Below are positions 12,083-28,713 of a stretch of 41,453 nucleotides of DNA, piece by piece. The translations under genes were made by a program, and so were the position numbers. This stretch comes from Dysgonamonadaceae bacterium (GTDB lineage: Bacteria > Bacteroidota > Bacteroidia > Bacteroidales > Azobacteroidaceae): positions 1 to 41,453 of the forward strand of contig JAITQA010000140.1 in the NCBI GenBank assembly GCA_031289145.1, in the 5' to 3' direction. The notes below the pieces were generated by a model. It was not told the DNA's origin. It worked only from the letters and a program-made list of their open reading frames with translations, and did not search any database. Position 1 is the stretch's first letter; every line of letters begins with the position of its first letter.

Positions 12083-14107
12083 TTATTTTAAATGTAACTT
12101 AATCATTTTCAATTCTTCCAATTCATTGACAGGACGTTCAATATCGTAAGGAACAGGTCTTTTTGAAAACGTCTGGAAATAAAGCAGACAGGCGTCTTTC
12201 CACCAGACAGCGTCTTTCGACTGGATTTTCAAGCGGGATTGAACATGGCAGAACCGTTCGGCGTCCACCCGGTTTTCCTGTCTGTCCCATATTTTCTGAA
12301 ATGCACGGACTTGCTGTACGCCGGCGTCATAACGGTAACACAACTCCTCCCAGAAAGACCGTCCGTTTTTCATCGTGTGATTCCAAGGAATGTGATGAAA
12401 CCATACTAGCAAATTTTCCGGACAGGTATTGGGATTATTCAATATTTCTCTCAAAGGTGATTCGTATTGCGAAACGGCATTGCTGCCGGTAGTCGTGCGA
12501 TTGAAACCCAAACCGGTGTTATCGGCTTGGTGATAATACGATGGAAGCCAGTCGGGACGCGCTCCGGGAATCGCACACCAGGGTTCCGGTCCATAATGAT
12601 GCGACCAGGCAAAAATATGATGCAAACCCAAGGGCATCATATAGCTGACCGTTGTTTCCCATGACGACAGCATCATTTCTTTAACCGGATTGACAAGCGC
12701 GATGTCGGACGAAAAAGTCAGGCGCAACCACTCATCGGCGATTTCGGCAGGCGTCAGTTGGTGTTTCCAAGCCAATCGTCCGAAAGCATACCAGTTGGCT
12801 TGCGCGAAATGGTGACCACACCAGTTTGTATTGTCTCCGGTATTGGCTACACCGGCGATTGCCGTCAGTTTGTTGGGGAAAACCGTTCCATCGGTTACTT
12901 TGGCTACCGTACTTCCTTCGCCTTTGCAATAGGTGTCGCTATTGAGAAATTCTTTCCACATCGAAGCCAGGAAGACCAGATGGTTGGAAAATCCCAAATA
13001 TTCCTGTGTGACTTGTAGTTCCGGCATGAGTGGCGTTTTTTTCATGGCGCCGAACAGGGCATTAAACGGTTCGCGAGGCTGAAAATCAATCGGACCGTTT
13101 TTCACCTGAACAATCACATTGTCGCGGAATTGGCCATCCAAAGGCGTAAATTCCAAATAGGCTTGTTTGGCGCGGTCGTCTCCCGAAGGATTGTAGACAA
13201 AAGCCCGCCACATAACGATACCGCCGTACGGTTTCAATGCATCGGCCAGGGTATTGGCGCCCTCGGCGTGGGTGCGTCCGAAGTCCTGTGGGCCGGGTTG
13301 GCCTTCAGAGTTCGCTTTGACCAAAAATCCGCCGAAATCAGGAATCAATCGGTATATTTCAGCGGCTTTATTTTTCCACCATTGTTGCACTGTTTTGTCC
13401 AAAGGGTCGGCTGTCTTCAAGCCGTCTAAGATAACAGGCGATGAAAAATTGACGGATAAATAAACTTTTATGCCATAAGGGCGGAATATTCCGGCCAAGA
13501 CTTTCACTTTCTCAAGCATTTCCGTTTTCAGGATTTGCGGGGAAGCGTTGACATTGTTCAATACCGTCCCGTTGATACCGATAGAAGCATTGGCGCGGGC
13601 ATATTCCCGATACCTTGGCGATACGGTTTCCGGCAACTGTTCCCATCTCCAGAGGGATTGTCCGGCATAACCGCGCTCTATGCTTCCGTCTAAATTGTCC
13701 CAATGGTTCAGTATCCGGAGATTGTAGCTTGGCGATTCGGCGATGTTCAGTTCCCCGTTTAATTGTCCGGTTTCCTGCATACGTAGCAAGTGATAGGCTC
13801 CGTATAACAATCCTTTTTCCGATGAAGCGGAAATATTCACCCCGTTCCGGCTGTCGCCCGTAATGGTGAAAGCATCCGGATTCGGGAGTCTCGTTTTTCC
13901 GACCATGTTTAATTGTACCGGCGCTCCTTTCCATTGTGTCTGCAATTCTTGTACGGCAATTGCAATGGATTCTCCTTTCTTGTTGGCTGAAACCTGTGCT
14001 TGCGCATCCGCATCGGCACGCAACCACAGTCGGCTACCATCTTCCGCCCGGCTCAGCAGCGCGAAAGAAATTGATAAAGTCACTAATGCTAACTTTATTA
14101 ATTTCAT
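12083..14107 (-). CDS. GH67 alpha-glucuronidase
   Basis: Releases (4-O-methyl)glucuronic acid from the non-reducing end of aldouronic acids made by xylanases. Start taken at the ATG at 14107, giving signal peptide KLIKLALVTLSISFALLSRA; the frame is also open to a TTG 6 bases earlier. It has the GH67 N-terminal domain (SRLWLRADADAQ, GNPDAFTITGDSRNG-like), then the catalytic barrel with Glu268 (VKANSEGQPGP), Asp341 (GPIDFQPREP) and Glu369 (VTQEYLGF). The spacings (73 and 28) equal those of the catalytic Glu292/Asp365/Glu393 of Cellvibrio GlcA67A, so it should be active, probably in the periplasm. It starts 2 bp after the GH43 stop, indicating tight coupling. It acts on terminal residues and complements GH115, which removes internal glucuronate. 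Confidence 0.96.
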   Translation of the reverse strand: MKLIKLALVTLSISFALLSRAEDGSRLWLRADADAQAQVSANKKGESIAIAVQELQTQWKGAPVQLNMVGKTRLPNPDAFTITGDSRNGVNISASSEKGLLYGAYHLLRMQETGQLNGELNIAESPSYNLRILNHWDNLDGSIERGYAGQSLWRWEQLPETVSPRYREYARANASIGINGTVLNNVNASPQILKTEMLEKVKVLAGIFRPYGIKVYLSVNFSSPVILDGLKTADPLDKTVQQWWKNKAAEIYRLIPDFGGFLVKANSEGQPGPQDFGRTHAEGANTLADALKPYGGIVMWRAFVYNPSGDDRAKQAYLEFTPLDGQFRDNVIVQVKNGPIDFQPREPFNALFGAMKKTPLMPELQVTQEYLGFSNHLVFLASMWKEFLNSDTYCKGEGSTVAKVTDGTVFPNKLTAIAGVANTGDNTNWCGHHFAQANWYAFGRLAWKHQLTPAEIADEWLRLTFSSDIALVNPVKEMMLSSWETTVSYMMPLGLHHIFAWSHHYGPEPWCAIPGARPDWLPSYYHQADNTGLGFNRTTTGSNAVSQYESPLREILNNPNTCPENLLVWFHHIPWNHTMKNGRSFWEELCYRYDAGVQQVRAFQKIWDRQENRVDAERFCHVQSRLKIQSKDAVWWKDACLLYFQTFSKRPVPYDIERPVNELEELKMIKLHLK

Positions 14108-14109
14108 TA

Positions 14110-15069
14110 TCAATGTGTTACTATTTTAATACTTCCATCCGGATTATATACCAATTCCACCACTTTCAGGCTGCGTAACCAGGTAGTTCCTCCGGAAGGC
14201 ACGCAATCGTGATGGAAGAGGTACCATTTCCCTTTGAATTCTGCAATGGCCTGATGGGTAGTCCAACCCACAACCGGTTCGAGGATAACGCCTTGATACG
14301 TAAACGGCCCGTAGGGATTATCGCCCGTAGCATAGCACAGCAGGTGTGTGTCGCCGGTGGAGTAGGAGAAATAGTATTTTCCTTTGTATGTATGTATCCA
14401 GGATGCTTCGAAAAAACGGCGTTGGCTATCGCCGTGAGTGAGCGGTTTGCCGTCTTTGTCCAAAATAATGACAGGCCGGGGTTCTTCTGCAAATTCGAGC
14501 ATGTTTTCGCTCAGTTTCACTACCCGTGAAGGAATCGCCGGTTCATCGTCAGCAGGGAAAACCGCGCTTTCGAGCGCTTTATTGTTGCGATAGCGTTGCA
14601 ATTGTCCACCCCATAAGCCGCCGAAATACATATAGCAGGCCCCGTTTTCCGATAGCACACAAGGGTCGATACTGTAACTGCCTTTAATCGGATTTTCCTG
14701 CGGGATAAAAGGCCCTTCCGGTTTGTCGCTGATGGCTACACCGATACGGAAAATATCGTTTTTGTCTTTTAAGGGGAAATACATATAATACTTACCGTCT
14801 TTGCAGACTACATCGCAGTCCCACAACTGCCGACCGGCCCAAGGAATGTCTTTGACGTCCAATACCACGCCATGGTCGGTGATGATACCGTTTTCAACAT
14901 CATCGGTCGAAAAGACATGATAGTCTTTCATGTCGAAGTGGTCGCCGTTGTCATTTTCCGGAATGCCGCTTTCACGGTCGTGCGAAGGATAAATATACAA
15001 TTTACCATTAAAAACATGTACAGCCGGGTCTGCCATGTAATCGTTCGGAACTAAATATCTTGCTTTCAT
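14110..15069 (-). CDS. GH43 (subfamily 1-like) beta-xylosidase, cytoplasmic
   Basis: Hydrolyses short xylo-oligosaccharides to xylose. The 319-residue protein has no signal peptide, is essentially the five-bladed propeller alone, and should work in the cytoplasm. GH43 landmarks: base Asp in DYMADPAVHVFNGKLYIYPSHD, DIPWAGRQLWDCDVV, pKa-modulating Asp in SYSIDPCVL and acid Glu in RRFFEASWIHTYKGKYYFSYS. The opening MKARYLVPNDYMADPA and the long GIPENDNGDHFDM insertion are typical of GH43_1. It lies between GH10 and GH67, separated from GH10 by an 8-bp repeat array. An arabinofuranosidase activity is possible; the subfamily is from motif memory. Confidence 0.9.
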   Translation of the reverse strand: MKARYLVPNDYMADPAVHVFNGKLYIYPSHDRESGIPENDNGDHFDMKDYHVFSTDDVENGIITDHGVVLDVKDIPWAGRQLWDCDVVCKDGKYYMYFPLKDKNDIFRIGVAISDKPEGPFIPQENPIKGSYSIDPCVLSENGACYMYFGGLWGGQLQRYRNNKALESAVFPADDEPAIPSRVVKLSENMLEFAEEPRPVIILDKDGKPLTHGDSQRRFFEASWIHTYKGKYYFSYSTGDTHLLCYATGDNPYGPFTYQGVILEPVVGWTTHQAIAEFKGKWYLFHHDCVPSGGTTWLRSLKVVELVYNPDGSIKIVTH

Positions 15070-15152: not shown

Positions 15153-16271
15153 TTATTCTTTTGTTTTATTAATAATTGTCTGAACAACCGGTTTCGGATT
15201 GCCTTGTCTGTCGAAGAGCAGTGCATAGTCTGTTCTGCCGGGTACCGGCCAATCGTTGCGCCAAGAATCTTTATCACACACGCCCCAAAGGGTTACACGG
15301 GTGATTTTATCGCTGTGTTTGAGGAAAAGTGCGAAAAATTCTCCCATGCGGCTGTCCCATGCTTGCGAAACGCTGTCGGGCAAACCTTCTGCATAAGGAT
15401 TCAGTTCCTTTTGGTAGTCGAAATTGGTTTCTACCGCCGCGCCCATATTGGGATTAGGCGAAGGAAGCACGGTGAGGTCCAGTTCGGTAATCATCACCTT
15501 CACGCCGGTTGAAGCTAAAGAGAGCAGGCTGTTTTCGAAGGCTTCCAAGGTGGGATAGTCCATGCCGATATGCCCTTGCATACCCACAGCGTCAATTCTC
15601 AAACCTCTTTCTTTCAGTTTTTTAACCAACTCCACTACGGTAGCGCATTTGGCAGGAAGCGCCATGGAATAGTCGTTGTAGTAAAGTTCTACATCGGGGT
15701 CGGCTTCGTGGGCAAATTGAAATGCAAGCGGTATAAATTCCTCGCCGAGAATCTCATATAACTTGCTGTTGCGCCAGGAACCGTCGTCAAGAATCGCTTC
15801 GTTGACAACATCCCAACCTTTGATGCGGCCTTTGTAGCGCGAAACTACGGTCGTGATGTGATTCTTTAATCTTTCCGTCAGTATTTCCGGCGAAACATTG
15901 TTGCCGTTTTCATCAACAAACAACCAATCGGGAGCTTGCGAATGCCATACGAGGCAATGTCCCGTAATCCACATATTGTTTGCCTCACCCCAAGCGACAT
16001 ACTTGTCTGCTTCGTCAAAGAAAAATTCACCTTCTTTCGGTTGCAAGAACATGCTTTTCATACAGTTTTCAGGCACTATGGCCGAAAAATTCTCTTTTGC
16101 AACTCTTTCCGAAAGGGTATCAATACCTGAAAACTGGCTAACACTTAGCGCCGTTCCAATGTAAAATTTGTCTTTCAACGCATCTCTCAGTGTAGCAGTC
16201 TTACTTTGTGGCGTTTGTCCACACCCAACTGCAAAAAGCGCCAAAACGCCAACATAAAAAATAGTTTTCAT
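15153..16271 (-). CDS. GH10 endo-beta-1,4-xylanase, lipoprotein
   Basis: Cuts the xylan backbone. Start placed at the ATG at 16271 (MKTIFYVGVLALFAVGCG), giving a lipoprotein signal with lipobox AVGC. The frame is open to 16289, but that ATG lies inside a tandem repeat. The 372-residue catalytic domain has acid/base Glu158 in WDVVNEAI and nucleophile Glu263 in VMITELDLTV, plus ENCMKSMFLQPKEGEFFF, WITGHCLVWHSQAPDW, YYNDYS, GVGMQGHIGMD-like and TLWGVCDKDSWR, all typical of GH10. There is no carbohydrate-binding module. It is probably anchored in the periplasm or on the surface. It produces the aldouronic acids that GH67 trims and the xylo-oligosaccharides that the next-door symporter and GH43 use. 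Confidence 0.96.
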   Translation of the reverse strand: MKTIFYVGVLALFAVGCGQTPQSKTATLRDALKDKFYIGTALSVSQFSGIDTLSERVAKENFSAIVPENCMKSMFLQPKEGEFFFDEADKYVAWGEANNMWITGHCLVWHSQAPDWLFVDENGNNVSPEILTERLKNHITTVVSRYKGRIKGWDVVNEAILDDGSWRNSKLYEILGEEFIPLAFQFAHEADPDVELYYNDYSMALPAKCATVVELVKKLKERGLRIDAVGMQGHIGMDYPTLEAFENSLLSLASTGVKVMITELDLTVLPSPNPNMGAAVETNFDYQKELNPYAEGLPDSVSQAWDSRMGEFFALFLKHSDKITRVTLWGVCDKDSWRNDWPVPGRTDYALLFDRQGNPKPVVQTIINKTKE

Positions 16272-16320
16272 AAAAAATTTATAATTCATAATTTATAATT
16301 TATAATTCATAATTCATAAT
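16272..16320. repeat. 7-bp tandem AT-rich repeat (symporter/GH10 junction)
   Basis: About six units of ATAATTC/ATAATTT. On the minus strand they read ATTATGA/ATTATAA and supply TGA or TAA in every frame. The stop codon of the symporter gene (16314-16316) lies in the array. Confidence 0.75.
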
Positions 16321-17720
16321 TGTTCTTGTTTACTCTTGTTTTCAATCTCTTTCCCATAACTTACCAATTGTTCATCTGTGAGGTCATAGCGATAGACAAT
16401 GAAAGCTAATAATACAACGAGCAAGGCAGGCAGCGCGGCTAAAAGCAGTTTGATGCCGAACAGCGCCGAGTCTCCTTGCGATTCAATATCGGCATTGAAG
16501 CCGGTAAGCGACAACACAATACCGGGAACAAAACCGCCAAGCGCAAGTCCAAACTTGAAGAAAAAGCCAATCAAGGCATTGGCAATCCCCGATATACGTT
16601 TGCCTGTCTGCCATTCGCCATAGGTGATGGCTTCGGGAATGAGTGACCAGATAAATGCGCCGACCACGCCAAAACCGACCGACCGAACAAATTGGGATAT
16701 AAAAATCAAGGTAATATTATCAGCGGGAATGATGAAAAGTCCGGCAAAACCAATGAATGATATGGCAAGTGAAAGATAAAGTAATCCTTTTTTACCCAAT
16801 TTTTTACGCATCCAAGGCATAAACGGCAGAATGACTAAGGCCGGAAGCGCCGAAATGACCATATAGGCGCCCATAAGTCCCTCATTGCCAAGATTGTATT
16901 TCACAAAGTAAGTTCCTGCCGAATTGCTGATAGCCATGATGGCAAATGCTGTGATAAACATGAACGAAATGATGCGTAACGGACGATTGCGAACCACTTC
17001 GGTAAACAAGTCGGAAAATTTAACCTTCGCCTGGTCTTCTTTGGAGATGACCACGCGCTCTTTGGTTCCGGCAAACGAAAACAGGAGCGCCGCAAGACCG
17101 ATAACGCCATAAATCACAATGGTTGTTAACCATGCGCTGCGCGATTCGGGAGACCCCATTACATCTTCTTTACCGGCAAAAATGATGATAAGCGTTGGCA
17201 CGCCGTAGGTGATTGCCACCTGCGCCACATTGACCAACCACATGCGGGTGGTGGTGAGGATGGTGATTTCGTGCTGGTCGCGCGTAAGCGCTGCATTGAG
17301 CGCACCGAACGGAACGTTCACCGTAGTGTAAACGACAGAAAGCGTCACGTAGGTTACGCAAGCATAAATCACCTTACCTGTACTGCCGAAATCAGGCACA
17401 ATAAAACAGGCAATCATCAGAATGGTCAACGGCAATGCCATAATGAGCAGCCAGCCGCGGTATTTCCCGAATCGTGTTGTGTTCATGTCAATCAGCGTGC
17501 CTACAATAGGGTCCCAGATGGCATCGATGATGCGTACACCCAGGAACATGGCTGCTGCAATGGCAGGGTTTAAGCCGTACACATTGGTATAAAAAAATAG
17601 TAAATAAGTTGTAACTGTTTGATAAATAAAATTTTGAGCCATGTCTCCAGAGCCGAACGCAATGCGCTCCGTCCATGAGAGTTTGTAAAATCCTTTAGCT
17701 TCGGATGTTTTTGTGTTCAT
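16314..17720 (-). CDS. GPH-family sodium/sugar symporter (xyloside or glucuronide type)
   Basis: Inner-membrane transporter of the glycoside-pentoside-hexuronide:cation symporter family (MelB/XynT/UidB relatives), 468 residues with 12 predicted helices. Landmarks: the N-terminal TERIAFGSGDMAQNFIYQ, the helix-2 motif RIIDAIWDPIVGTLID with the cation-binding Asp residues, TRFGKYRGWLL, and the second-half VGAFIWSLIPEAITYGEWQTGKR. It lies between the GH115 fusion and the GH10 xylanase, so its likely cargo is xylobiose, longer xylo-oligosaccharides or aldouronic acids brought in from the periplasm, feeding the cytoplasmic GH43 and UxuA. The exact substrate cannot be told from sequence. Confidence 0.92.
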   Translation of the reverse strand: MNTKTSEAKGFYKLSWTERIAFGSGDMAQNFIYQTVTTYLLFFYTNVYGLNPAIAAAMFLGVRIIDAIWDPIVGTLIDMNTTRFGKYRGWLLIMALPLTILMIACFIVPDFGSTGKVIYACVTYVTLSVVYTTVNVPFGALNAALTRDQHEITILTTTRMWLVNVAQVAITYGVPTLIIIFAGKEDVMGSPESRSAWLTTIVIYGVIGLAALLFSFAGTKERVVISKEDQAKVKFSDLFTEVVRNRPLRIISFMFITAFAIMAISNSAGTYFVKYNLGNEGLMGAYMVISALPALVILPFMPWMRKKLGKKGLLYLSLAISFIGFAGLFIIPADNITLIFISQFVRSVGFGVVGAFIWSLIPEAITYGEWQTGKRISGIANALIGFFFKFGLALGGFVPGIVLSLTGFNADIESQGDSALFGIKLLLAALPALLVVLLAFIVYRYDLTDEQLVSYGKEIENKSKQEQL

Positions 17721-17742: not shown

Positions 17743-20700
17743 TTACCAATATTTCAGTATAAAATTCTTGAATGCAGGATAATTCGGGGCAGCTTCGTGT
17801 CCGCCGCTATGCTGACGGTAACCGATGTCGCCTTGCAAATAGTCTTTGTTATTTACGGGCATCGGTATTTTTTGTCCGTTGTAGTTCATCACATCGTCCA
17901 TCACAACGCCTTTTTTGCCCAGCAATTCATAGACAGGACTTGCCGCTACCGTCGTAAGATATTGTCCGTAAGGGTCTGCCCAGGCATCACCCGCATCAGG
18001 ACTACCATTACCGATAAAAATCGGGCGTGGAGCGCACAAAGCGACCAAAGACTCGGCGTCCACCGGCATTTGCTTTACTTTGCGAGGCATGTAACCGTCT
18101 GTGCTGCTTTCGTCCACACCGGTATATTGCATGGCGTTTCCGGCAATCCAGTGGTATTCGGAATTCCAGACGCAGTTTTCCAAATCTTCACCCCAGTGAC
18201 GACGGGAGGGCGCTACGCCCATCGCTCCCGACGAACTCGGGAAAGCGGTAGCAATGCGCGTATCGTAAGCCATGGCCACCAGCACTGCTTTGCCGTAACG
18301 GGAATGTCCGGTTAATGCGATTTTTTCGGTATCTACCAAAGCATTTTCTTTTTCAAAAAAATCAATGATGCGGCTGATTCCCCACGACCAGGCGACCAAA
18401 GTCCCCCAGTCCGATGGTTTGCGCCATTCGCCTTTATTAACCAAACCAACCAGATAACTTGTCAATCCTGCGCCATTGTCGGGTTGCAAGGCTATGGGAT
18501 TGAAATAAAGTGTTCCTATATTTTCCGAAGCCATAACCTTCCACAAAACCTCATCGCAAACCAGCTGTCCGCCGAAACTCCATGCATAGTTGATGACGAT
18601 GGGCGTTTTTTTGTTTTCAGGCAAATTGGCGGGAATACGCAGAATACCCGATATGACGGGAATATTGTGTACACCGGGATAAGTAGATGGGTCTATTTTG
18701 CCGGTGAGGATGTATTGCCGGAAAGGCGTTGTGGGTGTTGTTTTGCCGTCGCGACCGACAATCTCTTTTACCTCAGTGGGTTCGCCGATGTGCCATTCGA
18801 TTTTCAGATTGGTGGCTTCGGGCGGTATCTGACCGTAGATTTTTTGTACTTCCTCAAAAATCCGGTTGCGGCGTTGCGGCCATGTTTGCGGCGTTACACC
18901 GGATAAGTCATGCAAAGCGAGCGGTTGGTAAAATTTGGCGCCGGAAAAGTAGTCGCCGCCCGGTTCAAATACTTCGATGTAATTGTTCCACAAACCTTCG
19001 CTTGTCCGGGTAATGCCGCCGGAGCGGTCTGTCCGTTTCCAGTTGCCTTCGGGATTGGCCGGGTTTTCAGGAATAAAACTCACGCCTGTCCCGAACGATT
19101 GCAGGCGTTGACTCATCTTTTGTTCATAATCGGTTTTCCGGTTGGGAATAACCGGATAAGTTATTCCGAGTTGGCGCATCATTTGGTCGTGGTCTACGCG
19201 GTCGTTTACGGCAGCGGGAGGCGAAGCGGGGAACGGACTTTCGTTGTTCAGGTATTCGCTTTCCGGAGCGCCGAGGTAGCTGGGTTTCAATCCACCCCAG
19301 TTCAGCAGGATTTTTTCGAAAACGATTCCCGTTTCCAAGACCCGGATGCGCAAGGTATGCTTCCCGCCTTTGGCGATTTGCATTTTTTCGCTTGACTTGA
19401 TGATGCTTTCTCCCTGCCATGGACCGAGTTCGCCCCGGTAATGCCCGTTGAAATTCACTATTTTCTCCTCGCCGTCATCGAATGAGAGCGCATAACGCAA
19501 ACCTTTGTTGGCATTGAAATTAAGTGTTGGCGCAAGTAAGATTTGTATTTCCACATCGCCCGACGATTCCGTTTGGATATCGTATTCAAGATAAATTGCG
19601 TCGTTTTCATACGGATAAACGTTTTGTGGGAAAGTCGTGACGCCGGATTTTGTTTTTCCAAAGCCGGGAATGATTTCCCAATGGATTTTGTCTGTTCCTT
19701 GAGAACGGGCGAAATTTTCCGCCTCAATGGAAATGTATCCGTCTTTTTCAATGAATATTTTTTCTTTGGGTACGGAACGATACACGTATTCGACTTTCGG
19801 CATAGCGTTCCGTTCGGGTTGCTGCCAATAAGTGTAGCCGATATGTGTCTGGTCCATTGTATGCGCCCATTTTCCACCGGCAATATCCTGATTGTAATGC
19901 AGGGTAAGCAAAGAGTCCCGTTCGAAGCAAGCCTTAACTTTATCCGCCCATTCGTTTGCCTGCAAATCGTACTTCCCTACATAGTAGCGGTTCATGGCTA
20001 CGGCGTAGTACATTTCATACAGATTGCTGCACGCATTGATTGGAAATAATACCAACTGGTCGAATGCGTCTTTGTATGTGTTGGGGATAAGATTGTAGAG
20101 CCGCAAGGCGTCTATTGCCAAATCTTTGTACTCGTTGACAACCGTTTCAAATTCCTTGTAATTTTCCAGGCTGTACGTACTTTCGTTCAGGAGTTCGGGA
20201 GTAACACGCCGGTTATATTTCGTGTACAAGTTAATCAGGCGGGCAGATTCTTGTGCGTATTTTTCTCCGAATTGCGCTACACACCAATTTTCGGTATGCA
20301 GCAACAAATTATTGGCATTGAAACGTTTGGGATTCCAAGCCATATCCAAGAAAAAACTGATAGGATATTCCATGGGTTTCAAATCGCCGACATTGACTAC
20401 CCAAAGTTTATCTACACCGTGTTCATAAGTGAGATTCATCTGCTCCCAAGTACGTTGAATTGGGGTAACATTCAGCCATTTATAATTTCTCGGTCCGCCT
20501 ACGTAATCAAAATGGTAGTACATGCCATACCCGCCTTTGCGTTTCGGCGCATTCAAGTCGGGGAGTTTGCGGACATTGCCCCAATTATCGTCGCAAAGCA
20601 GCAGGGTGATGTCGTCCGGGACGCGCATGCCTTTGTCGTAGTAATCCTGCACTTCTTTGTACAATGCCCAGACTTGGGGTGTTTCTTCCGTTTTTTTTCC

Positions 20701-22521
20701 GGTCACTTTGGCAATAATATTGCGTTGACTTTTAACGATACGTTGCAGCAAATCAATGTTTGCGCCTTCGCTCATCGGTTCATCGCCATCGCCGCGCATA
20801 CCGACTGTTACGACTGTTTCATAATTTTTCATTCGCTCCATGCCGCTGCGCCAAAATTCTTCTAAAATTTGCGGATTCTTATCGTAATTCCATTCGCCTT
20901 TTCCGTAGCGTCGCCATTCGTCGTGGGCGCGTCCCATCGGCTCGTGATGGGAGGTGCCGATTACGATGCCCATTTCATCGGCCAAAGCGCCGGTGGCCGG
21001 GTCGTCATCGTAAAGCGCATTGCCCCACATGGCCGGCCAAAGGAAGTTGCCGTTCAACCGAAGTATTAATTCAAATATATGTTCATACATTTTCGAGTTG
21101 ACGCCGCCGAATTTTTCTACGCACCAGCCTTGAAATGCGGGGGCTTCATCGTTGATAAAAATGCCGCGGTATTTCACTGCCGGTTCGCCATTGGTGTATT
21201 TACCGGGCTTCACGTACAGATTTTCCTGATGCTTGACCGGCACATCCGCCCACCAGTACCAAGGCGATACGCCCATTTGCTTAGCTAATTCGTAAATGCC
21301 GTAAATCGTTCCGCGCTTGTCGCTTCCGGCGATGACCAAACCTTTACTGACACCCCGCACCGGATTATCAATAGTTTGAATCAGGTACTTTTCATTTTTT
21401 CCGCTGATTTCATCCTTCGCTATTTTTCCTTCCCTGATTAATCCGTCAATGATAGCCGATTCCCCAACCGTTCCGATAATGATGGCATTGGGCAAAAGCG
21501 TTTGGGGTAAATAACCTGTCACTTGCTTAAAATCATTGTATAAATCATTGACTGCACGTAAAACGCCTTTATTGCTTTCATCGGTCATAATGCTGGCCGG
21601 ACTTCCTTTCACAACCAGCGGAAACCAGGTATTGTTTCCTTCCGTATAAACAAATTGTTCCACACCGAAAGTAGCTACCAAGTCTCCTGACAGCAATTCC
21701 GTGTCGAAGACAATGATAGCATCTCCCTTTTTGACGGAAGCTACTTTTTCATTGGAGCGAGTGGGTCGGCTTGCATATTGGTAGGGTGTGGAGCCGGACA
21801 GGTCACCGTCGGAAAGTTGTTTTGCCAATTGTTTCATATCCAGCAGATAATCCAATCCCATAGCACGTTTCAGGTAGGGATAATGTCCTAAATACAGTTT
21901 GGTAATATTTTGTTTCCGCATGATTTTCTCCATCCGGATGCAGGATTCGTAAAGGGTTTTCATAGGTACATGCGGACGCAGTTGCATCCAGAGTTCACCC
22001 GAACCGAAAGCATCGCCTGTATAAATCGCATGAATGGATGAGTCGATTAAGACCACAGAACCGGGCGTATGTCCGGGCATTAGCGATACTTCAATTTTCC
22101 GGTCGCCCAGGTCAAATACGTCGCCGTCTTTCAACCAATGGTATTTGCCCGGATAAGGCTTTGATTGGACAACCGTATCAAGCGGGTGCAAATACACTTC
22201 GCTGAAGTAATGTGCATTGCCCGAATGGTCGCCGTGATTATGCGTGAGCACGACATACAGCGGCTTTTTCGTTATTGTACGGACAATACTGTCCAAGGCT
22301 TCACACTTTGTGCCGGTATCGATTAACATGGCCCGTTTTGTTCCCTCCACGATGTACATGGTCGTCATATCGGCTGTTTCCACGACCCATACACCCTTGT
22401 CCAACACGCTAATACTTAATTCATCATTTTTGAATACTTCCTGTGCCGAAACGATTGTGCAGGAAAATAGACAAAGAATCAAAAACAAAATCGTTTTTTT
22501 ACAATATTTCATCATCAACAT
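17743..22521 (-). CDS. Three-domain fusion: metallo-beta-lactamase fold + GH115 alpha-glucuronidase + CE15 glucuronoyl esterase
   Basis: One 1592-residue secreted polypeptide with three catalytic modules. After a signal peptide (ending about residue 26, CTIVSAQ) comes a metallo-beta-lactamase domain (about 30-240) with a full two-metal ligand set: HNHGDH at 94-99, His151 (PGHTPGS), Asp170 (YTGDAFG), His213 (LGHYP). Residues about 262-1090 are GH115, which removes internal and terminal (methyl)glucuronate from xylan: YWWADVPV, RGIFINDEAPAFQGW, LRLNGNFLWPAMW, GTSHHEPMGRAHDEW, VGMRGDGDEPM, LCDDNWGN. Residues about 1110-1592 are CE15, which cuts the ester between glucuronate and lignin alcohols: Ser1407 in TGHSRYGK, His1575 in SGGHEA. 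At Ser+23 this domain has Ser1430, not the Glu seen in the double CE15 protein, so its acid is probably the Asp near GNGSPDAGDAW. The first and last activities are well matched; the lactamase-fold substrate is unknown. ATG codons 2-3 residues downstream are alternative starts. Confidence 0.93.
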   Translation of the reverse strand: MLMMKYCKKTILFLILCLFSCTIVSAQEVFKNDELSISVLDKGVWVVETADMTTMYIVEGTKRAMLIDTGTKCEALDSIVRTITKKPLYVVLTHNHGDHSGNAHYFSEVYLHPLDTVVQSKPYPGKYHWLKDGDVFDLGDRKIEVSLMPGHTPGSVVLIDSSIHAIYTGDAFGSGELWMQLRPHVPMKTLYESCIRMEKIMRKQNITKLYLGHYPYLKRAMGLDYLLDMKQLAKQLSDGDLSGSTPYQYASRPTRSNEKVASVKKGDAIIVFDTELLSGDLVATFGVEQFVYTEGNNTWFPLVVKGSPASIMTDESNKGVLRAVNDLYNDFKQVTGYLPQTLLPNAIIIGTVGESAIIDGLIREGKIAKDEISGKNEKYLIQTIDNPVRGVSKGLVIAGSDKRGTIYGIYELAKQMGVSPWYWWADVPVKHQENLYVKPGKYTNGEPAVKYRGIFINDEAPAFQGWCVEKFGGVNSKMYEHIFELILRLNGNFLWPAMWGNALYDDDPATGALADEMGIVIGTSHHEPMGRAHDEWRRYGKGEWNYDKNPQILEEFWRSGMERMKNYETVVTVGMRGDGDEPMSEGANIDLLQRIVKSQRNIIAKVTGKKTEETPQVWALYKEVQDYYDKGMRVPDDITLLLCDDNWGNVRKLPDLNAPKRKGGYGMYYHFDYVGGPRNYKWLNVTPIQRTWEQMNLTYEHGVDKLWVVNVGDLKPMEYPISFFLDMAWNPKRFNANNLLLHTENWCVAQFGEKYAQESARLINLYTKYNRRVTPELLNESTYSLENYKEFETVVNEYKDLAIDALRLYNLIPNTYKDAFDQLVLFPINACSNLYEMYYAVAMNRYYVGKYDLQANEWADKVKACFERDSLLTLHYNQDIAGGKWAHTMDQTHIGYTYWQQPERNAMPKVEYVYRSVPKEKIFIEKDGYISIEAENFARSQGTDKIHWEIIPGFGKTKSGVTTFPQNVYPYENDAIYLEYDIQTESSGDVEIQILLAPTLNFNANKGLRYALSFDDGEEKIVNFNGHYRGELGPWQGESIIKSSEKMQIAKGGKHTLRIRVLETGIVFEKILLNWGGLKPSYLGAPESEYLNNESPFPASPPAAVNDRVDHDQMMRQLGITYPVIPNRKTDYEQKMSQRLQSFGTGVSFIPENPANPEGNWKRTDRSGGITRTSEGLWNNYIEVFEPGGDYFSGAKFYQPLALHDLSGVTPQTWPQRRNRIFEEVQKIYGQIPPEATNLKIEWHIGEPTEVKEIVGRDGKTTPTTPFRQYILTGKIDPSTYPGVHNIPVISGILRIPANLPENKKTPIVINYAWSFGGQLVCDEVLWKVMASENIGTLYFNPIALQPDNGAGLTSYLVGLVNKGEWRKPSDWGTLVAWSWGISRIIDFFEKENALVDTEKIALTGHSRYGKAVLVAMAYDTRIATAFPSSSGAMGVAPSRRHWGEDLENCVWNSEYHWIAGNAMQYTGVDESSTDGYMPRKVKQMPVDAESLVALCAPRPIFIGNGSPDAGDAWADPYGQYLTTVAASPVYELLGKKGVVMDDVMNYNGQKIPMPVNNKDYLQGDIGYRQHSGGHEAAPNYPAFKNFILKYW

Positions 22522-22562
22522 TCAATTATTCAGTTATTTCATTATTCATTATTCACTCATTA
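22522..22562. repeat. 8-bp-type tandem repeat across the GH9 stop codon
   Basis: Degenerate ATTATTCA/GTTATTTC units. On the minus strand they read GAATAATG, GAAATAAC and GAATAATT and give stops in all frames. The GH9 reading frame ends inside the array (NEIMSE, stop at 22549-22551). Confidence 0.65.
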
Positions 22563-25065
22563 TCTCATTCACCGCGTTCACCAGGAAAATATAGCTGGCG
22601 CCCAGATTGACCACATATTCGTTTTCGCCCCAGAAGAAAGGCCAGTCTTCCTTGTTTTCGGGGAAATCCGGTTTCAGAATCAAGATACCGGGGACAATTC
22701 CGCCGGGAAGGAAAGAGAAATCGGCGCGATTATTTCCGTAAGCCACTCTTTTTGAGGATGTGCCTACTGCAGAAACGAAAGATATATCGCTATCCGGGTG
22801 GCAGCCGTAGATATAATTCAGGCCGCGGAGCACATATTCCTTGTCCACCAATTCGGGGAAAGATTGATGCAGCAGGTAGCAAGTGATGGCTGTCTGGATG
22901 ACTCCGCCGTTGCCGGCCCATCCGCCGGTAGAGATAAATACGCCGAAAGGATTCATTTTTTCGATAGCCGCGAGTTGTTCCATATAGGTTTTTACCTGCG
23001 GTTCTACTTGCTTTTTGAACGATTCGTCCATCAAAGGAAGAGCCTGTGCAATAAGAGAAGCAAATCTTCCGAATTGTTTTGCTATTTCGGGGTACATTTC
23101 TGCGATTTGCACTTTGTAGCGGCTGTCGCCCGTAGCGTGCAGCAGTTCAATGGCGGCGCGAAACACTTCCATATCCAAGGAGCCGCCGATAGTGTTGAGG
23201 CCTTTGTAGACAAAAATATCAGGTTCATGGCGCTGCTCGTCCGTCCAAATCTTTTGGGCGACGGCGAGACATTCTTCCGCTAACTGGCTGTTGTATGTTT
23301 TCAAGACACGGCTTGCAGCAGCCAGAGCGGCCGCAGAACCATAGTTCAAAGGCGTTGATTTATTGGTAAATGCCCATCGGTCGTCGAACGTACCGCTGGT
23401 GTGTCCATCCGATTGCAGGCTGTCTAAGCGTGGATTATAGACTAAGTTATCTGTCTTGGTCACGCCATCACCCAGGTGCCGGTATTGATAAATATGCGCT
23501 TCAACGATTCCGTTCACAGCATATCCGATGGCTTTTTGTTGCGCCAGGAGTTGGACGACACCGTGTTCGATTTGCTGGAGTATATCGGCATGTCCGTCCG
23601 GTACGTGCATTTCCACATAGCGGTTTTTTTGATTGATGGTTGTTTCGTCCCGAGAGAGATTGAAATGTTCCTGTGAGCGAACCAAATCCATGACTACCGC
23701 CTGATTGGTTTGCGTACGGATGTCAAAGTCACCGGCATCGTACCAACCGCCCACGTTCAATCCGGGGATATGTTCCAAGGATTTGTATTTCGTGCCCGTT
23801 TCCGGTCCTTGCGCGTAGAGGTCGAAATGGTGATGGTTGACCGGCGCTTGCAAGGCATCATCCAAATGGGATGCTCCGTGCCATACCCGGTAAGCCTCTC
23901 TGACGAAAACATGGTCCATTTGAATCGGAAAATACACATCAAGCGTCGGATGCCAGGCTGTTTGATAGACGTCTGTCCCGATGCGGAAAGGAGCCGTCAG
24001 GATTTCACCGTATTGTAATTGGTAAATGCCCGGCTCTTTTACTTCCGAAAAGTCGAAAGTCAGGTAGTTGTAGCGCAGGTAAGCGCCCCAAGGTTTGGGT
24101 TTCTCCAGCAGGGCTTTGCTTATGCTTCCGTCGTTATTCACTTTCAGCAGTTGAACAGTCGCTTCCGGTTTGTCGTTTTTATCCAATTCGATTACTGCTA
24201 TTTTCTTTTGGGCGGGATGATAACCGACTTGTGAATGGGCGATTACCGGTTTCCGTGTCCAGTTTTTGAGGGTTTGGGCGGTGATAAACCATTCGACTAA
24301 TTTCCCGGATTTCCCGGCGGGTAGCAGACTGCGTACCACAAACCAGCCGTTTTGGGCTTTGTTTCGTCCGTCGAACAAGAATAGTCTATTGTCCGGGCAT
24401 GAGATGGTGATGCTTCGTTCCGGATTTTCCGGCGCCAGTGTAATCCTTGTTCCGGAAGCGATGGGTTTAGGCTCCGTTTCTCCGTTGATGGTTTCCATAC
24501 TGCTGCTCGGATACAACGGGAAAATACCGGTAACTCCATTTGCAACAAATGATTTCCCGAAATAGGCGGAAGGCAGGAACTCCAGATTCAGTCCGGCTAT
24601 CCCGTCCAGTTCCTCCGGAATGGGGAGGTTGGCATGTACGCTGATGTAAATGCCGCCATCGCGGGCTTCTCCCCGGATGGTGTATTGAAAATTGTATCGG
24701 GGATATTCCAATACCGCCTCTATGCGTCCGTTTTCCTTGTAAACGGTCCGTTTCACAAATTCGGGGATGGCGTCCCACTGTCCGGGGGTCGGGTTCAGGC
24801 GGACATCACCGTTGGTAACGGTGCGAACGCCGTGGTGGATGATTTCCACGCCACTGATTTTGGCGTCGTCGAACGAGCCGTCATACCAATTGCTGAACAC
24901 CATCACATTCAGTCCCCGCGCTTCGAAATAGCCTGAATCGTTGAGCGCCAAGCTCTGTGAAGGGGGAGCCGATGTAAAATACTGACAGCCGGGAAGAAAA
25001 ATACTTCCCAATATGCCTGTTACACCCAAAATAAATGCACTATAAAAGAACTTTCGAGTTATCAT
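22549..25065 (-). CDS. GH9 glycoside hydrolase with N-terminal Ig-like domain, lipoprotein
   Basis: GH9 enzymes are inverting endo- or exo-glucanases, and some act on xyloglucan or mixed-linkage glucan. Start at the ATG at 25065 (MITRKFFYSAFILG). The frame also runs to a TTG at 25092 inside a repeat. A lipoprotein signal ends in LPGC. An unassigned beta-rich N-terminal region (about 40-270) precedes the Ig-like domain (about 280-370: VIAHSQVGYHPAQKKIAVIE, YQLQYGEILTAPFRIG) and the (alpha/alpha)6 catalytic domain. Base Asp443/Asp446 lie in GGWYDAGDFD and acid Glu816 in ENEYVVNLGASYIF. A GH9 in a glucuronoxylan operon is unexpected; it may open cellulose- or xyloglucan-associated xylan, or have a different specificity. 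Family assignment is firm, substrate is not. Confidence 0.88.
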   Translation of the reverse strand: MITRKFFYSAFILGVTGILGSIFLPGCQYFTSAPPSQSLALNDSGYFEARGLNVMVFSNWYDGSFDDAKISGVEIIHHGVRTVTNGDVRLNPTPGQWDAIPEFVKRTVYKENGRIEAVLEYPRYNFQYTIRGEARDGGIYISVHANLPIPEELDGIAGLNLEFLPSAYFGKSFVANGVTGIFPLYPSSSMETINGETEPKPIASGTRITLAPENPERSITISCPDNRLFLFDGRNKAQNGWFVVRSLLPAGKSGKLVEWFITAQTLKNWTRKPVIAHSQVGYHPAQKKIAVIELDKNDKPEATVQLLKVNNDGSISKALLEKPKPWGAYLRYNYLTFDFSEVKEPGIYQLQYGEILTAPFRIGTDVYQTAWHPTLDVYFPIQMDHVFVREAYRVWHGASHLDDALQAPVNHHHFDLYAQGPETGTKYKSLEHIPGLNVGGWYDAGDFDIRTQTNQAVVMDLVRSQEHFNLSRDETTINQKNRYVEMHVPDGHADILQQIEHGVVQLLAQQKAIGYAVNGIVEAHIYQYRHLGDGVTKTDNLVYNPRLDSLQSDGHTSGTFDDRWAFTNKSTPLNYGSAAALAAASRVLKTYNSQLAEECLAVAQKIWTDEQRHEPDIFVYKGLNTIGGSLDMEVFRAAIELLHATGDSRYKVQIAEMYPEIAKQFGRFASLIAQALPLMDESFKKQVEPQVKTYMEQLAAIEKMNPFGVFISTGGWAGNGGVIQTAITCYLLHQSFPELVDKEYVLRGLNYIYGCHPDSDISFVSAVGTSSKRVAYGNNRADFSFLPGGIVPGILILKPDFPENKEDWPFFWGENEYVVNLGASYIFLVNAVNEIMSE

Positions 25066-25081: not shown

Positions 25082-25124
25082 CCGTTATTCAATTATTCAG
25101 TTATTCAGTTATTCAATTATTCCT
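25082..25124. repeat. 8-bp tandem repeat across the GH43_12 stop codon
   Basis: About five units GTTATTCA/ATTATTCA, reading GAATAACT/GAATAATT on the minus strand. The frame of the upstream gene ends in it (GIIE, stop at 25109-25111). The most upstream TTG-initiated extension of the GH9 frame also begins in it. Confidence 0.8.
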
Positions 25125-26746
25125 TTAGAACCGGTGTACTCAAAAAAATCCACATCCACATATCCGCCCGACGCTTTGGTAGCATAATTGTAAATGGCGA
25201 TGCGATACCCCATAAAGTGAACGAGATTGTACACCATGCGAAATTCCGTACCCAATTGTGTCCAGTTTTCTTTGTCGGAACTGTAATAGAAATTCGCTTT
25301 ATCGGTATTGAAATCGCAATCCATGCGCAGGTACACCCTGTTGTGAAGCCATTCCGTCCGGGCTTTTTCCTTGCCTCTGTCCGTCATGACCAAGCATTTT
25401 TTGTCGCCTTCTTGTACCACCGAAAGAAGTCCCGCTTCTGCGCAGAAAGCGCCTAATCCCGCCACATCGCCGTCTCGCATACGCGAAACATCCATTGATA
25501 TAACGGCGCTGCATTGCGACCCTTCGGTTCGTTGCGACAGGGTGTTGCGAGCCTGAAATATATTTTCCACCACTTTTCCTGTTTTCAGTCTTATGTAACC
25601 GGGGCGTTCGGTGAGCGACCACAGACTGTTGTCGGGATTGTGGTTCCATTGCCAGTTGAGCGCCAATGTTTTTTCCTCGAAACTATCGCTGACAACCAAC
25701 GGTTTTCCGGTATATCCTCGAACCGGTTTTTCCATTGTTTTGGGTACTTTTCCTTCCTTGTCGCCCAAGATGGGCCAGCCGTTTTCCCATCGGCATGGCG
25801 TCAATACGGGAACACGTCCGACTGCGTTATGGTCTTGAAAAAGGAACCCGAACCAACGTCCGTCTTCCGTATCGACAATGCCTCCTTGCGCCACGCCTTT
25901 TCCGTAAAGGTCGAGTGTATCCGAGAGGATTATTTTCGACTCGTAAGGACCTTCAATGCGGTCGGAACGAAAACACAATTGTGTACGAATCCCGTTGGGG
26001 GGCCATCCTATCAGGAACAGGTAATATTTTCCGTTGTATTTGTAAAAATGTGTGCCCTCCAGCAAGCCTTTATAGCCCTGTTCTTCTCCTACAAAAGCGC
26101 TTACCGCAAGTACGCCTTCTTTTATGCCCGACAAATCGCTTTTCAACTCCACTATCCGGATATGACCTGAGCCATAAGCCAGATAGACTTTCCCATCATC
26201 GTCAAACAAGAGCGAGGCGTCGTGATAATTTTTATCAAACTCACTGACTTTTTCCCATTTGCCTGCTGGGTTATCCGTCTCATAGATATGTGATTTTTTG
26301 GGGGTGTTGGTAGCGAAAAACACATAGAATTTACCATTGTGGTAACGAAGCGAAGACGCCCATTGTCCTTTTCCATACACATCGCCTCCTTCGAGGTCGT
26401 ATAACGGACTGTCTTTTATTTCATCGAACACGTAACTGATGATTTCCCAATTCACAAGGTCTTCCGACCGCATAATGGGTGCGCCCGGCATCAGGTGCAT
26501 GGTTGTGCTGACCATATAAAAGTCGCTGCCTACTCTGATTACATCTATATCGGGAACGTCTGCATAAATGACGGGGTTGGTAAATGTTTCACTGCCATTA
26601 CCGGCAACCTGCGCCGACAAGGGAAAAAACAAGCAGAAAAGGCCAATGATTATGGATAAGTACCTCTCCCCCGACCCCTCCCCACAAAGGGAGGGGAGAG
26701 TGGGGTTTTCATGCTTTTTGCGGCTTATTAAACATATCTGTTTCAT
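25109..26746 (-). CDS. GH43 (subfamily 12-like) beta-xylosidase/arabinofuranosidase with C-terminal beta-sandwich
   Basis: Removes xylose or arabinose units from xylan and its oligomers. The 545-residue protein has a propeller at about 50-345 with base Asp in YADVPDIDVIRVGSDFYMVSTTMH, pKa Asp in YHDASLLFDDDGKVYLAYG and acid Glu230 in GLLEGTHFYKYNGKYYLF, then a concanavalin-like sandwich (about 350-535: SLWSLTERPGYIRLKTG, YRIAIYNYATKASGGYVDVDFFEYTG). The hydrophobic signal core (SIIIGLFCLFFPLSA) begins only at about residue 30. The residues before it (ENPTLPSLCGEGSGERY) are encoded by a REP-like palindrome, and no later in-frame ATG precedes the core, so translation apparently runs through the repeat. 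It follows the CE20-like gene directly. Confidence 0.9.
   Translation of the reverse strand: MKQICLISRKKHENPTLPSLCGEGSGERYLSIIIGLFCLFFPLSAQVAGNGSETFTNPVIYADVPDIDVIRVGSDFYMVSTTMHLMPGAPIMRSEDLVNWEIISYVFDEIKDSPLYDLEGGDVYGKGQWASSLRYHNGKFYVFFATNTPKKSHIYETDNPAGKWEKVSEFDKNYHDASLLFDDDGKVYLAYGSGHIRIVELKSDLSGIKEGVLAVSAFVGEEQGYKGLLEGTHFYKYNGKYYLFLIGWPPNGIRTQLCFRSDRIEGPYESKIILSDTLDLYGKGVAQGGIVDTEDGRWFGFLFQDHNAVGRVPVLTPCRWENGWPILGDKEGKVPKTMEKPVRGYTGKPLVVSDSFEEKTLALNWQWNHNPDNSLWSLTERPGYIRLKTGKVVENIFQARNTLSQRTEGSQCSAVISMDVSRMRDGDVAGLGAFCAEAGLLSVVQEGDKKCLVMTDRGKEKARTEWLHNRVYLRMDCDFNTDKANFYYSSDKENWTQLGTEFRMVYNLVHFMGYRIAIYNYATKASGGYVDVDFFEYTGSKGIIE
26658..26712. repeat. REP-like G/C-block palindrome (family 1, copy a)
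   Basis: Inverted G-run/C-run element (CCCGACCCCTCCCC, ACAA, GGGAGGGGAGAGTGGGG) lying in the coding sequence of the signal-peptide N-region of the GH43_12-like gene. It resembles the copy at 28709-28762 in the opposite orientation. Confidence 0.7.
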
Positions 26747-26755: not shown

Positions 26756-26792
26756 TACCGTTACTCAGTTACTCAATTATTCAGTTATTCGC
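26756..26792. repeat. 8-bp tandem repeat across the CE20-like stop codon
   Basis: About four units GTTACTCA/ATTATTCA/GTTATTCG. On the minus strand they read GAATAACT, GAATAATT and GAGTAACT. The CE20-like gene ends in it (FQSE, stop at 26785-26787). Confidence 0.75.
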
Positions 26793-28713
26793 TTTGAAAC
26801 GGCGAAGCCGGCAATCCCGATTTGTTCCGCAGGTTCGCTCCGTCCGGGTTATTCGCCCAGGCATAACGAACCTTTACAGGTTGCGCGACTTCATCGCTCC
26901 ACACAATCACTTTGTTTCCGTCGATGCTTGCCTTTGCCAATTTGAAAATGCCATCGGATCCGGCTATGGCAAAGCCTTTCAGTTCATCGACAAGCAACAG
27001 GTCGTTTGTTCCTTCCTTGAAAGAGAGGATGATTTTGTTTCCGTCAATGCTTTTTGATTGATAAACAGGACCGTCTTTTACGATTTTTTCGCCGTACACG
27101 ATGCTTCTTGCCTGCAATGCCAGCCGTTTACCCACATCTTTTTTGTTGAGGGGATGAATATCGTTCCACTCGCCCACGTCAATCGTGACGGCCAATCCTG
27201 TGTTGGGAACGGTTTGCGAGAGTTTTCGCTGTACGTCGCGCAATTCCGCCCAACCGCTGTTTTGCTGCAACAGGGCAGGTTCCATATAATTTGCCAATTG
27301 CACAATCAGAAACGGCAGGTCTTTTTTCCACAAATTGCGCCAATCGCCGATTAGCGTGGACATCAGGTCGTAATATTCGATGTAACGGTCGGTATTCGAT
27401 TCTCCCTGATACCAGATAAAACCTTTGACGGGGAAATTTTGCAAAGGGGTAATCATGGCGTTGTAAAGTCCTACGGGTTTGTATTGGAAGGTGATACCCC
27501 CTCCGCCCGGCGGATTCATCTGAACGCCCAACCGGTATTTCCATTCGCCGGTAAGGCTGATTTCCCGGTTGTTGCAAACAATCTTATAGGGTTTGTCTTT
27601 TACAAATTCGGGGATACCGCCCTGACTGACCAGGCGTACCGTAATGAGGTTTTTACCGGCTTTCAATATTCCCTTGGGAAGTTGGTAGTTTCTGGGCGGG
27701 TATTGATAACCGGTTGTCCCGACAAATTTTCCGTTGACAAAAACAGAGTCGGCGTCGACGATGCGTCCCATATACAACATAGCATCCTGATTTTCGAAAT
27801 CCGCCGGAATTTCGATGGTTTTCCGGAACCAGAAAACGCCATTGACGGGGCGGGAATTTTTTCTTCCCCAACTGTTGTCGAGCAAATCGCTTGTTTGCCA
27901 CGAACTGTCGTCGTAAGTGGGTGAAGACCATTTTACGGCTTCGTTCAGGCCTTTGTCCTGTTGGTTCAGCATCTCTTGCCAACGGCGACCGGGCAGCGAA
28001 CCGAGCCGTTGCATTTCGGCCACAAACTCGTCCGATTCGCAGATGCGTTTATCGTTCAGGTAAGCGGGGAAAGCTTGCAGGGCTTCTTCACTAATCCAGG
28101 CTTCGGCAGGCGAACCGCCTACGCTGGAGTTGATGATGCCGACAGGGATGTTTGTTTTCTCGAACATTTCCTTGGCAAAGAAATAAGCGACTGCTGAAAA
28201 ATCCTGCGCTGTTTCCGGTGTCACGTCCGTCCACGTGCACGGCGGTACATCTGTTTGCGGCGCATGAAAATTGTAAGTCAGCGGTATCTTGACATAGCGG
28301 ATTTTGGAGTTGGAATAGCTGTTGATTTCGTCGCCGAACATACTCATCACCCTTGAGATGGGCGTTTCCATATTGGATTGGCCGGAACAAAGCCAGACGT
28401 CGCCGGTCAGGATATTGTTTACCTGAATGGTGTTGCTTGCCTTGATGGTCAGCGTATAGGGACCGCCCGCTTTTTGAGCCGGAAGGGTGATTACCCAATC
28501 TCCTTGCGCATCGGCCGATGTTTTGTAATCCGCTTTGTTGAAATTCACTGTAAGGGCTTCATTTGGAGCCGCCCAGCCCCAGATTTTCAAGGGGGAGTCG
28601 CGTTGAAGAATCATGCCGTCGCTGATAAGGCGCGGTAGTTTGACCTCGGCAGAACTGAAAATTGCTGAGAAAAGGAAGAGAATAAAAATTACTGCTGTAT
28701 GTAAATTTTTCAT
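26785..28713 (-). CDS. Sialate-O-acetylesterase-type (CE20-like) carbohydrate acetylesterase
   Basis: An SGNH-fold esterase that most likely removes acetyl groups from xylan or xyloglucan, opening the chain to the glycosidases. Start taken at the ATG at 28713 (MKNLHTAVIFILFLFSAIFSSAE, a good signal peptide). The frame is open to 28788 through a REP-like element. Domains: beta domain (about 25-100: LPRLISDGMILQRDSPLKIWGWA), catalytic block I with Ser113 (WLCSGQSNME), oxyanion segment (INSSVGGSPAEAWIS), an inserted jelly-roll (about 250-370: GVFWFRKTIEIP, MYMGRIVDADSVFVNG-like), FIWYQGESNTDRY, and Asp518/His520 (NDIHPLNK). The inserted jelly-roll is the arrangement described for CE20. The catalytic residues look complete. 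Confidence 0.88.
   Translation of the reverse strand: MKNLHTAVIFILFLFSAIFSSAEVKLPRLISDGMILQRDSPLKIWGWAAPNEALTVNFNKADYKTSADAQGDWVITLPAQKAGGPYTLTIKASNTIQVNNILTGDVWLCSGQSNMETPISRVMSMFGDEINSYSNSKIRYVKIPLTYNFHAPQTDVPPCTWTDVTPETAQDFSAVAYFFAKEMFEKTNIPVGIINSSVGGSPAEAWISEEALQAFPAYLNDKRICESDEFVAEMQRLGSLPGRRWQEMLNQQDKGLNEAVKWSSPTYDDSSWQTSDLLDNSWGRKNSRPVNGVFWFRKTIEIPADFENQDAMLYMGRIVDADSVFVNGKFVGTTGYQYPPRNYQLPKGILKAGKNLITVRLVSQGGIPEFVKDKPYKIVCNNREISLTGEWKYRLGVQMNPPGGGGITFQYKPVGLYNAMITPLQNFPVKGFIWYQGESNTDRYIEYYDLMSTLIGDWRNLWKKDLPFLIVQLANYMEPALLQQNSGWAELRDVQRKLSQTVPNTGLAVTIDVGEWNDIHPLNKKDVGKRLALQARSIVYGEKIVKDGPVYQSKSIDGNKIILSFKEGTNDLLLVDELKGFAIAGSDGIFKLAKASIDGNKVIVWSDEVAQPVKVRYAWANNPDGANLRNKSGLPASPFQSE

Follow-up and report, generated by a model that had tools for sequence, protein, structure and literature searches.

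Lignin-carbohydrate esters limit the breakdown of wood. Enzymes of family CE15 cut glucuronoyl esters, and those of family GH115 take (methyl)glucuronate off xylan. A contig of 41,453 nucleotides from a Dysgonamonadaceae bacterium (JAITQA010000140.1, positions 1 to 41,453 of the forward strand), called the window here, encodes both families in a single protein that also carries a metallo-beta-lactamase (MBL) fold, which raises the question of what such a fold does in a chain of this kind. Our best explanation, held at a probability of roughly one half, is that the protein is a trifunctional enzyme, secreted to debranch lignin-linked (4-O-methyl)glucuronoxylan; its MBL domain would act on a further ester or lactone.

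One reading frame encodes an MBL, a GH115, and a CE15 domain

The gene (17743..22521, minus strand) is an open reading frame with an ATG start, which encodes 1592 amino acids without an internal stop. Its domains all score above their Pfam cut-offs: Lactamase_B at residues 51-213 (71.3 bits, cut-off 22.7), Glyco_hydro_115 at residues 445-777 (505.4 bits, cut-off 27; positions 2-335 of the 335 in the model), GH115_C at residues 923-1087 (158.7 bits, cut-off 24.1), and GCE_fung, for CE15, at residues 1331-1535 (103.6 bits, cut-off 27). The three-domain fusion that an earlier note had read from this DNA, and for which it had suggested a domain search, is thus borne out by a continuous frame and by a match for each part.

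With all parts on the minus strand, the chain begins with a signal peptide (residues 1-26, 22444..22521), recognized by eye as a hydrophobic N-terminus that ends in VSAQ; the MBL-containing protein of genome G010 shows this pattern as well. The MBL domain (residues 27-277, 21691..22443) was delimited by the Pfam match, the length of its homologs, and a structural model, and the GH115 alpha-glucuronidase with its C-terminal domain (residues 281-1087, 19261..21681), placed by Pfam and a solved-structure match, begins almost directly after it. A linker of about 78 residues (1088-1165, 19027..19260) that is weakly conserved, with 44% identity to genome G011 over 54 aligned codons and 56% to genome G015 over 50, leads to the CE15 glucuronoyl esterase (residues 1166-1592, 17746..19026), placed by Pfam, solved-structure matches, and motif residues. 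The window protein is one chain of MBL, GH115, and CE15, secreted as judged by its signal peptide.

The gene lies in a glucuronoxylan utilization locus

Ten neighboring genes, all on the minus strand, were scanned by profile. On one side of the fusion gene these encode a UxuA mannonate dehydratase (10898..12067), a GH67 alpha-glucuronidase (12083..14107), a GH43 enzyme (14110..15069), and a GH10 xylanase (15153..16289). The other side holds GH9 (22549..25065), two GH43 proteins with GH43_C2 (25109..26746 and 28815..30605), a SASA-type acetylesterase (26785..28788), a protein combining two CE15 domains with CBM_4_9 (30799..34848), and SusD (35209..37221). An MFS/GPH-type sugar transporter (16314..17720, minus strand) was named by eye from its sequence and a SusC-like protein (37238..40348, minus strand) by eye from how its sequence starts and where it lies, and a sensor-like gene was likewise named by eye. 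The window locus is a glucuronoxylan utilization locus. The genome contains one match to the glucuronate isomerase UxaC, on another contig, and one GH115 match, which is the window protein.

The protein with two CE15 domains also contains a GH115_C-like domain and, below the cut-off, matches a type IX sorting tail. Its first CE15 domain reads GCSYAGK where the second reads GCSRYGK, suggesting that the first may lack the oxyanion arginine.

By their isolate codes, other metagenome-assembled genomes (MAGs) in this analysis come from termite guts. By kinship, the genus of the window genome includes Candidatus Symbiothrix; Candidatus Symbiothrix dinenymphae is an ectosymbiotic member of the Azobacteroidaceae in termites, according to an excerpt of PMC11481507.

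The GH115 and CE15 parts keep activity-linked residues

The GH115 part matches BoAgu115A (PDB 4c90) over 808 query residues (E 3.8e-264), aligning with residues 26-850 of the 856 in that enzyme. Nine BoAgu115A residues, described in an excerpt of PMC3879575 as having mutant effects or substrate contact, are all kept: D206, W249, R328, D332, E375, Y420, H422, D424, and V426, in a numbering taken from the alignment to 4c90, correspond to D458, W499, R576, D580, E623, Y668, H670, D672, and V674 of the window protein.

For the CE15 part, the best solved match is 6hsw (E 5.5e-56). S1407, R1408, and K1411 lie in a GHSR.GK motif and D1512 and W1514 in an acid-x-Trp motif; in the PvCE15 sequence as far as described, these equal Ser264, Arg265, Lys268, Asp353, and Trp355. 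The CE15 enzymes compared here (6hsw, OtCE15A, and PvCE15) share the Ser-Arg and acid-x-Trp motifs with the window domain, which differs from them in being fused to GH115. The second acid of OtCE15A, which we take to be the one in its NESG motif, aligns with S1430. At the level of motifs, the Ser-His-acid triad and the oxyanion arginine are represented by S1407, R1408, D1512, and either H1571 or H1575, the C-terminal histidine region having been aligned with 6hsw only. Judged by these residues, the GH115 and CE15 parts are likely both active. The roles on glucuronate that the earlier note had assigned to them agree with the residues kept in both and with the glucuronoxylan gene context.

The MBL domain has an invariant metal site

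The MBL domain was aligned with 50 of 54 listed homologs from loci L046-L053 and L058-L108, giving 51 rows; L062, L083, L095, and L103 were left out as N-terminally short calls, and identical sequences, sequences with X, and matches of less than about 180 residues had been skipped beforehand. All seven metal ligands named in the earlier note are present, and each is identical in 51 of 51 rows: H94, H96, D98, and H99 in the motif HNHGDH (22225..22242), H151 (22069..22071), D170, the bridging ligand by family pattern (22012..22014), and H213 (21883..21885), all on the minus strand. The structure prediction that had been proposed gave a confident MBL-fold model (pLDDT 92.5). The proposed bounds of residues 30-240, by contrast, proved too short: a C-terminal segment common to the free-standing homologs maps to about residue 277 of the window protein, where the model has a hairpin.

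The Lactamase_B profile, the HxHxDH/H/D/H ligands, and the model with its fold matches place the domain in the MBL-fold superfamily. Its nearest folds are subclass B1 metallo-beta-lactamases, with MYO-1, BcII, and CcrA at 16-24% identity in the rows shown. The metal ligands of subclass B1 include a Cys site, in contrast to the window pattern. Among NCBIfam profiles, 11 matched, all far below their cut-offs, including bla_subclass_B1 (25.8 bits versus 200) and TIGR03413 for GloB, glyoxalase II (43.4 bits versus 200.8), which places the domain in neither family. A role as beta-lactamase was set aside on these scores, and the nearest folds are uninformative on an ester substrate. The domain is probably a hydrolase, which would use two metal ions and an activated water.

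Relative to G010, dN/dS of the MBL domain is 0.084, compared to 0.04, 0.10, and 0.17 for the three GH115 segments for which it could be computed, values that are rough as dS is near saturation. Roughly judged, the MBL domain has been under purifying selection since the fusion. This conservation bears on the reading in which the domain is incidental or detoxifying (glyoxalase II-like, thioesterase-like, or beta-lactam-hydrolyzing) and its fusion has no bearing on xylan. The B1 folds, low-scoring matches to the profiles for hydroxyacylglutathione hydrolase and for the class B core, and the number of GH115 orthologs that lack the domain would fit such a role. We nevertheless consider it very unlikely, given the distance of all 11 profiles from their cut-offs and a domain that is both conserved and repeatedly linked to polysaccharide loci.

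Each junction recurs in related genomes

In a sample of 395 genomes of the class, 23 contained GH115 at E up to 1e-60 (41 matches), and the window frame was the only GH115 frame longer than 1014 residues. The family sample of 45 genomes contained 20 with GH115 (28 matches). Within it, the MBL-GH115 junction was found in the window genome (G000) and G010, and the GH115-CE15 junction in G000, G011, G015, G831, and G426, the last with its 5' end cut. As each junction is found again in other assemblies of the genus or family, a chimeric assembly or chance is an unlikely source of the fusion, and a chimera was rejected as an explanation. The search for the same domain order that the earlier note had suggested thus returned both junctions; the triple form was seen in none of the genomes examined except G000. 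The G426 ortholog, of which the 5' half is missing, is 90% identical to the window protein in GH115 and 88% in CE15, and a search of the G426 genome did not find the missing part.

Two of the 15 closest GH115 orthologs carry the MBL domain, 12 do not, and 1 (that of G426) is 5'-incomplete; overall, the orthologs occur as GH115 alone, as MBL-GH115, or as GH115-CE15. In about 40 of 49 related loci, the MBL is encoded as a protein of its own. The earlier note had named the occurrence of the parts as separate genes as a point against the fusion; such genes do exist, but they do not refute it, since continuous frames are found in other assemblies. Rather, the separate and partial forms point to stepwise assembly and loss. 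Of 38 genomes of the genus, 2 have a close MBL and G011 has a distant match, and 15 of 393 genomes of the order have a match at E up to 1e-12. A plasmid search returned one distant match, in Parabacteroides distasonis (34%).

Other long GH115 proteins were observed in these genomes. G031, of the same genus, encodes a GH2-GH115 fusion of 1629 residues (L149:174-5063). Two GH115 frames of G831 (L146:6605-11032, 1475 residues, and L147:3217-7236, 1339 residues) have long C-terminal parts with no further domain above cut-off.

An old or anciently exchanged fusion, with an MBL domain that is dispensable

The GH115 tree places G000 with G005, G011, and G015 (80/96), and G010 with G002, G006, G026, and G004 (99/98). 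In the MBL tree, the two GH115-fused domains are each other's nearest relatives (100/99). Between G000 and G010, dS is 1.75 for the MBL domain; three segments of GH115 gave 1.6, 2.3, and 2.1, and no value could be computed for a fourth. With a synonymous distance in the MBL domain as large as that in GH115, either the fusion is ancient or its exchange took place long ago.

The GH115 proteins of G004 and G026, which lack an MBL domain, have a signal peptide followed by QEVFENNE or QEVTKNDE and then directly by GH115. These motifs are the start of the MBL domain. Near the N-terminus, the motif was found 27 times in 1083 predicted frames, in 21 MBL proteins and 6 copies of the G004 and G026 GH115 genes; overlapping loci were counted repeatedly, and the pattern was written after the two scars had been seen. 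This suggests in-frame loss of the MBL domain in G004 and G026, and an exchange of the signal-peptide region could be an alternative source of the scars. With 2 of the 15 closest orthologs carrying the domain and two others bearing a likely scar of its loss, the MBL domain is dispensable to GH115.

Free-standing homologs lie mostly in esterase loci

Neighboring genes were counted in 49 of 51 MBL loci, L085 and L096 being left out as the simple gene caller gave no MBL gene there. A CE1-type gene lay within about 8 kb in 28 of the 49, SusC and SusD in 22 each, GH3 in 17, a carboxylesterase in 13, a protein of about 526 residues in 11, an amidohydrolase in 6, UxuA in 2, and GH10 in 1; as the loci are related to each other, these counts are not independent events, and no formal probability is given for them. 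Neighbors were labeled by clustering or similarity, and the cluster members that were scanned matched 54/54 CE1, 19/21 GH3, 16/16 carboxylesterase, 6/6 amidohydrolase, and 10/11 X526 (the 526-residue protein) cluster genes. CE1, SusC, SusD, GH3, and carboxylesterase were all absent from 16 of the 49 loci, 6 of which are shorter than 12 kb. In ten genomes chosen for carrying the MBL (about 32 Mb), one CE1 query gave 39 matches, or about 0.02 expected per 16 kb; 14 of these, spread over 8 of the ten genomes, lay no more than about 8 kb from the MBL.

The best solved match of one CE1 partner is the ferulic acid esterase 6rzn (E 6.5e-101). CBM48-CE1 ferulic acid esterases of this kind are a frequent genomic partner of the free-standing MBL family; they are serine esterases with a fold unrelated to MBL. 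GH115 occurs in two of the 49 loci, L058, as the MBL's own fused domain, and L077, on the opposite strand, and GH67 in none of the 48 loci besides L058. With one of these 48 carrying GH115 and none GH67, the ancestral MBL substrate may be unrelated to glucuronate.

This context suggests a role without any link to glucuronate, in which the MBL domain keeps an ancestral function as a metal-dependent hydroxycinnamoyl (feruloyl or coumaroyl) or acetyl esterase and simply lets the fused protein remove more kinds of xylan ester. We regard this as possible, on the tentative side. The CE1, carboxylesterase, and GH3 neighbors and the likeness of one CE1 partner to 6rzn speak for it, as does the fusion of some family members (in L095, L098, L101, and L102) to a C-terminal domain weakly resembling CE4 deacetylases. 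However, CE1 loci often already hold two serine esterases (54 CE1-cluster genes in 28 loci), the nearest lineage grouping sits among glucuronate catabolic genes, and we know of no carbohydrate esterase family with an MBL fold.

The CE4 resemblance is a lead only, as the model of that domain is weak (pLDDT 68); the searches returned no separate Pfam match for the domain in L098 and nothing from NCBIfam in L101, where the fusion lies at L101:9974-11440. Another protein (L052:2943-4823) consists of GH43 followed by a distantly related MBL domain. Two recurrent partners were also observed. The protein of about 526 residues, exemplified by L067:7707-9287, matches no family above cut-off and is possibly a surface glycan-binding lipoprotein. 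The amidohydrolase, exemplified by L043:7056-8054, is an Amidohydro_2 protein with a signal peptide by eye; aromatic decarboxylases belong to the same superfamily.

The lineage grouping nearest the fused MBLs lies among glucuronate catabolic genes

Locus L066 encodes, in order, UxuA, a short-chain dehydrogenase (SDR), an MBL fused to Flavodoxin_2, and UxaC. In L064, UxuA is followed by a near-identical SDR start and the same kind of MBL, and then by the contig end; UxuA was named by similarity in both. In the MBL tree, the L064 and L066 domains are sister to the two GH115-fused MBLs with only moderate support (91/66). All four belong to an eight-row clade (97/93) that also contains Prevotellaceae MAGs with MBLs in CE1-type loci. 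The grouping and the content of the loci indicate that the lineage nearest the fused MBL is found in glucuronate catabolism, and the wider family mostly in esterase loci.

These loci raise the reading that the MBL domain is a uronolactonase, opening glucuronolactone or its 4-O-methyl analog so that the acid can enter catabolism. The gene orders UxuA-SDR-MBL-UxaC and UxuA-SDR-MBL, the fusion to an alpha-glucuronidase, and the presence of lactonases within the MBL fold are all in line with it, and the L066 MBL has a weak AiiA match (20.3 bits versus a cut-off of 375). Uronolactones open spontaneously near neutral pH, however, the CE1-rich loci have no obvious lactone source, and the signal peptide recognized by eye on the MBL sets it apart from UxuA and UxaC, which are cytoplasmic enzymes. 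We therefore consider a uronolactonase improbable.

The L066 fusion itself (L066:1911-4689) pairs the MBL with a KefF-like Flavodoxin_2 and has a signal peptide by eye. A flavodiiron-like reading was rejected: the second ligand in flavodiiron proteins is Glu, and in L066 it is His, so that a hydrolase site fits better.

A proposed role for the three domains

Under the trifunctional reading, CE15 would hydrolyze the ester that joins lignin to the glucuronate carboxyl, as is known of its family, and GH115 would hydrolyze the alpha-1,2 bond of glucuronate to xylan, likewise by family. The MBL domain, judged from its context, would use two metal ions to hydrolyze one more ester or lactone, either on this decoration or on the fragment set free. 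Its ancestor would be a secreted enzyme, encoded separately in CE1-rich loci, that became fused to GH115 in the window lineage. The suggestion in the earlier note of a third esterase or lactonase has gained plausibility from the CE1 neighbors and the nearest lineage in glucuronate catabolism, and the substrate is proposed from that context. That it is an ester or lactone is an even bet; that it is specific to glucuronate is distinctly more doubtful. Similarly doubtful is the wider proposal that this domain represents the first MBL-fold carbohydrate esterase family, spread across plant-polysaccharide loci of Bacteroidota and making a di-metal cut of a glucuronate or hydroxycinnamate ester at lignin-carbohydrate junctions.

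If that wider proposal holds, the window protein would unite three distinct enzymes acting on one cross-link in the same chain, and an MBL that is a metal-dependent esterase of lignin-carbohydrate bonds would be a new type of carbohydrate esterase. The family is open to direct assay, as it occurs free-standing at about 270 residues in many Bacteroidota genomes. With the fusion, one could ask whether combining three debranching steps in a single chain brings an advantage, and variants that have or lack each added domain already exist naturally in the genus.

Comparison with known systems

In the open-access literature, no description was found of the triple MBL-GH115-CE15 architecture, nor of the window MBL family in searches on polysaccharide utilization, feruloyl esterase, glucuronoxylan, and glucuronate lactonases, nor of an activity for any of its members. 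An excerpt on the Teredinibacter secretome lists a secreted 31.5 kDa protein of the MBL superfamily (PMC12055684). A Dysgonomonas locus with GH67, GH115, CE1, and CE6 is described in part of PMC8040265, in the text of which the words metallo and lactamase are absent.

BoAgu115A has neither an MBL nor a CE15 domain in its chain, unlike the window protein. Bacterial fusions of CE15 to glycoside hydrolases, like that in the window, include BeCE15A-Rex8A (CE15-GH8), CkXyn10C-GE15A, and OtCE15C (CE15-GH106); these involve other glycoside hydrolase families, and the excerpts describing them (PMC8417218, PMC10807430) mention no MBL. The closest counterpart is a secreted GH115-CE15 protein of the fungus Ganoderma boninense (PMC8097845), which has the same family pair in one secreted protein. 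It is fungal, was compared by description only, and has no MBL mentioned in the excerpt. With this fungal protein in print, the GH115-CE15 pair is not new; the window protein is a variant of the multicatalytic carbohydrate-active enzyme, in which the MBL family is the new element.
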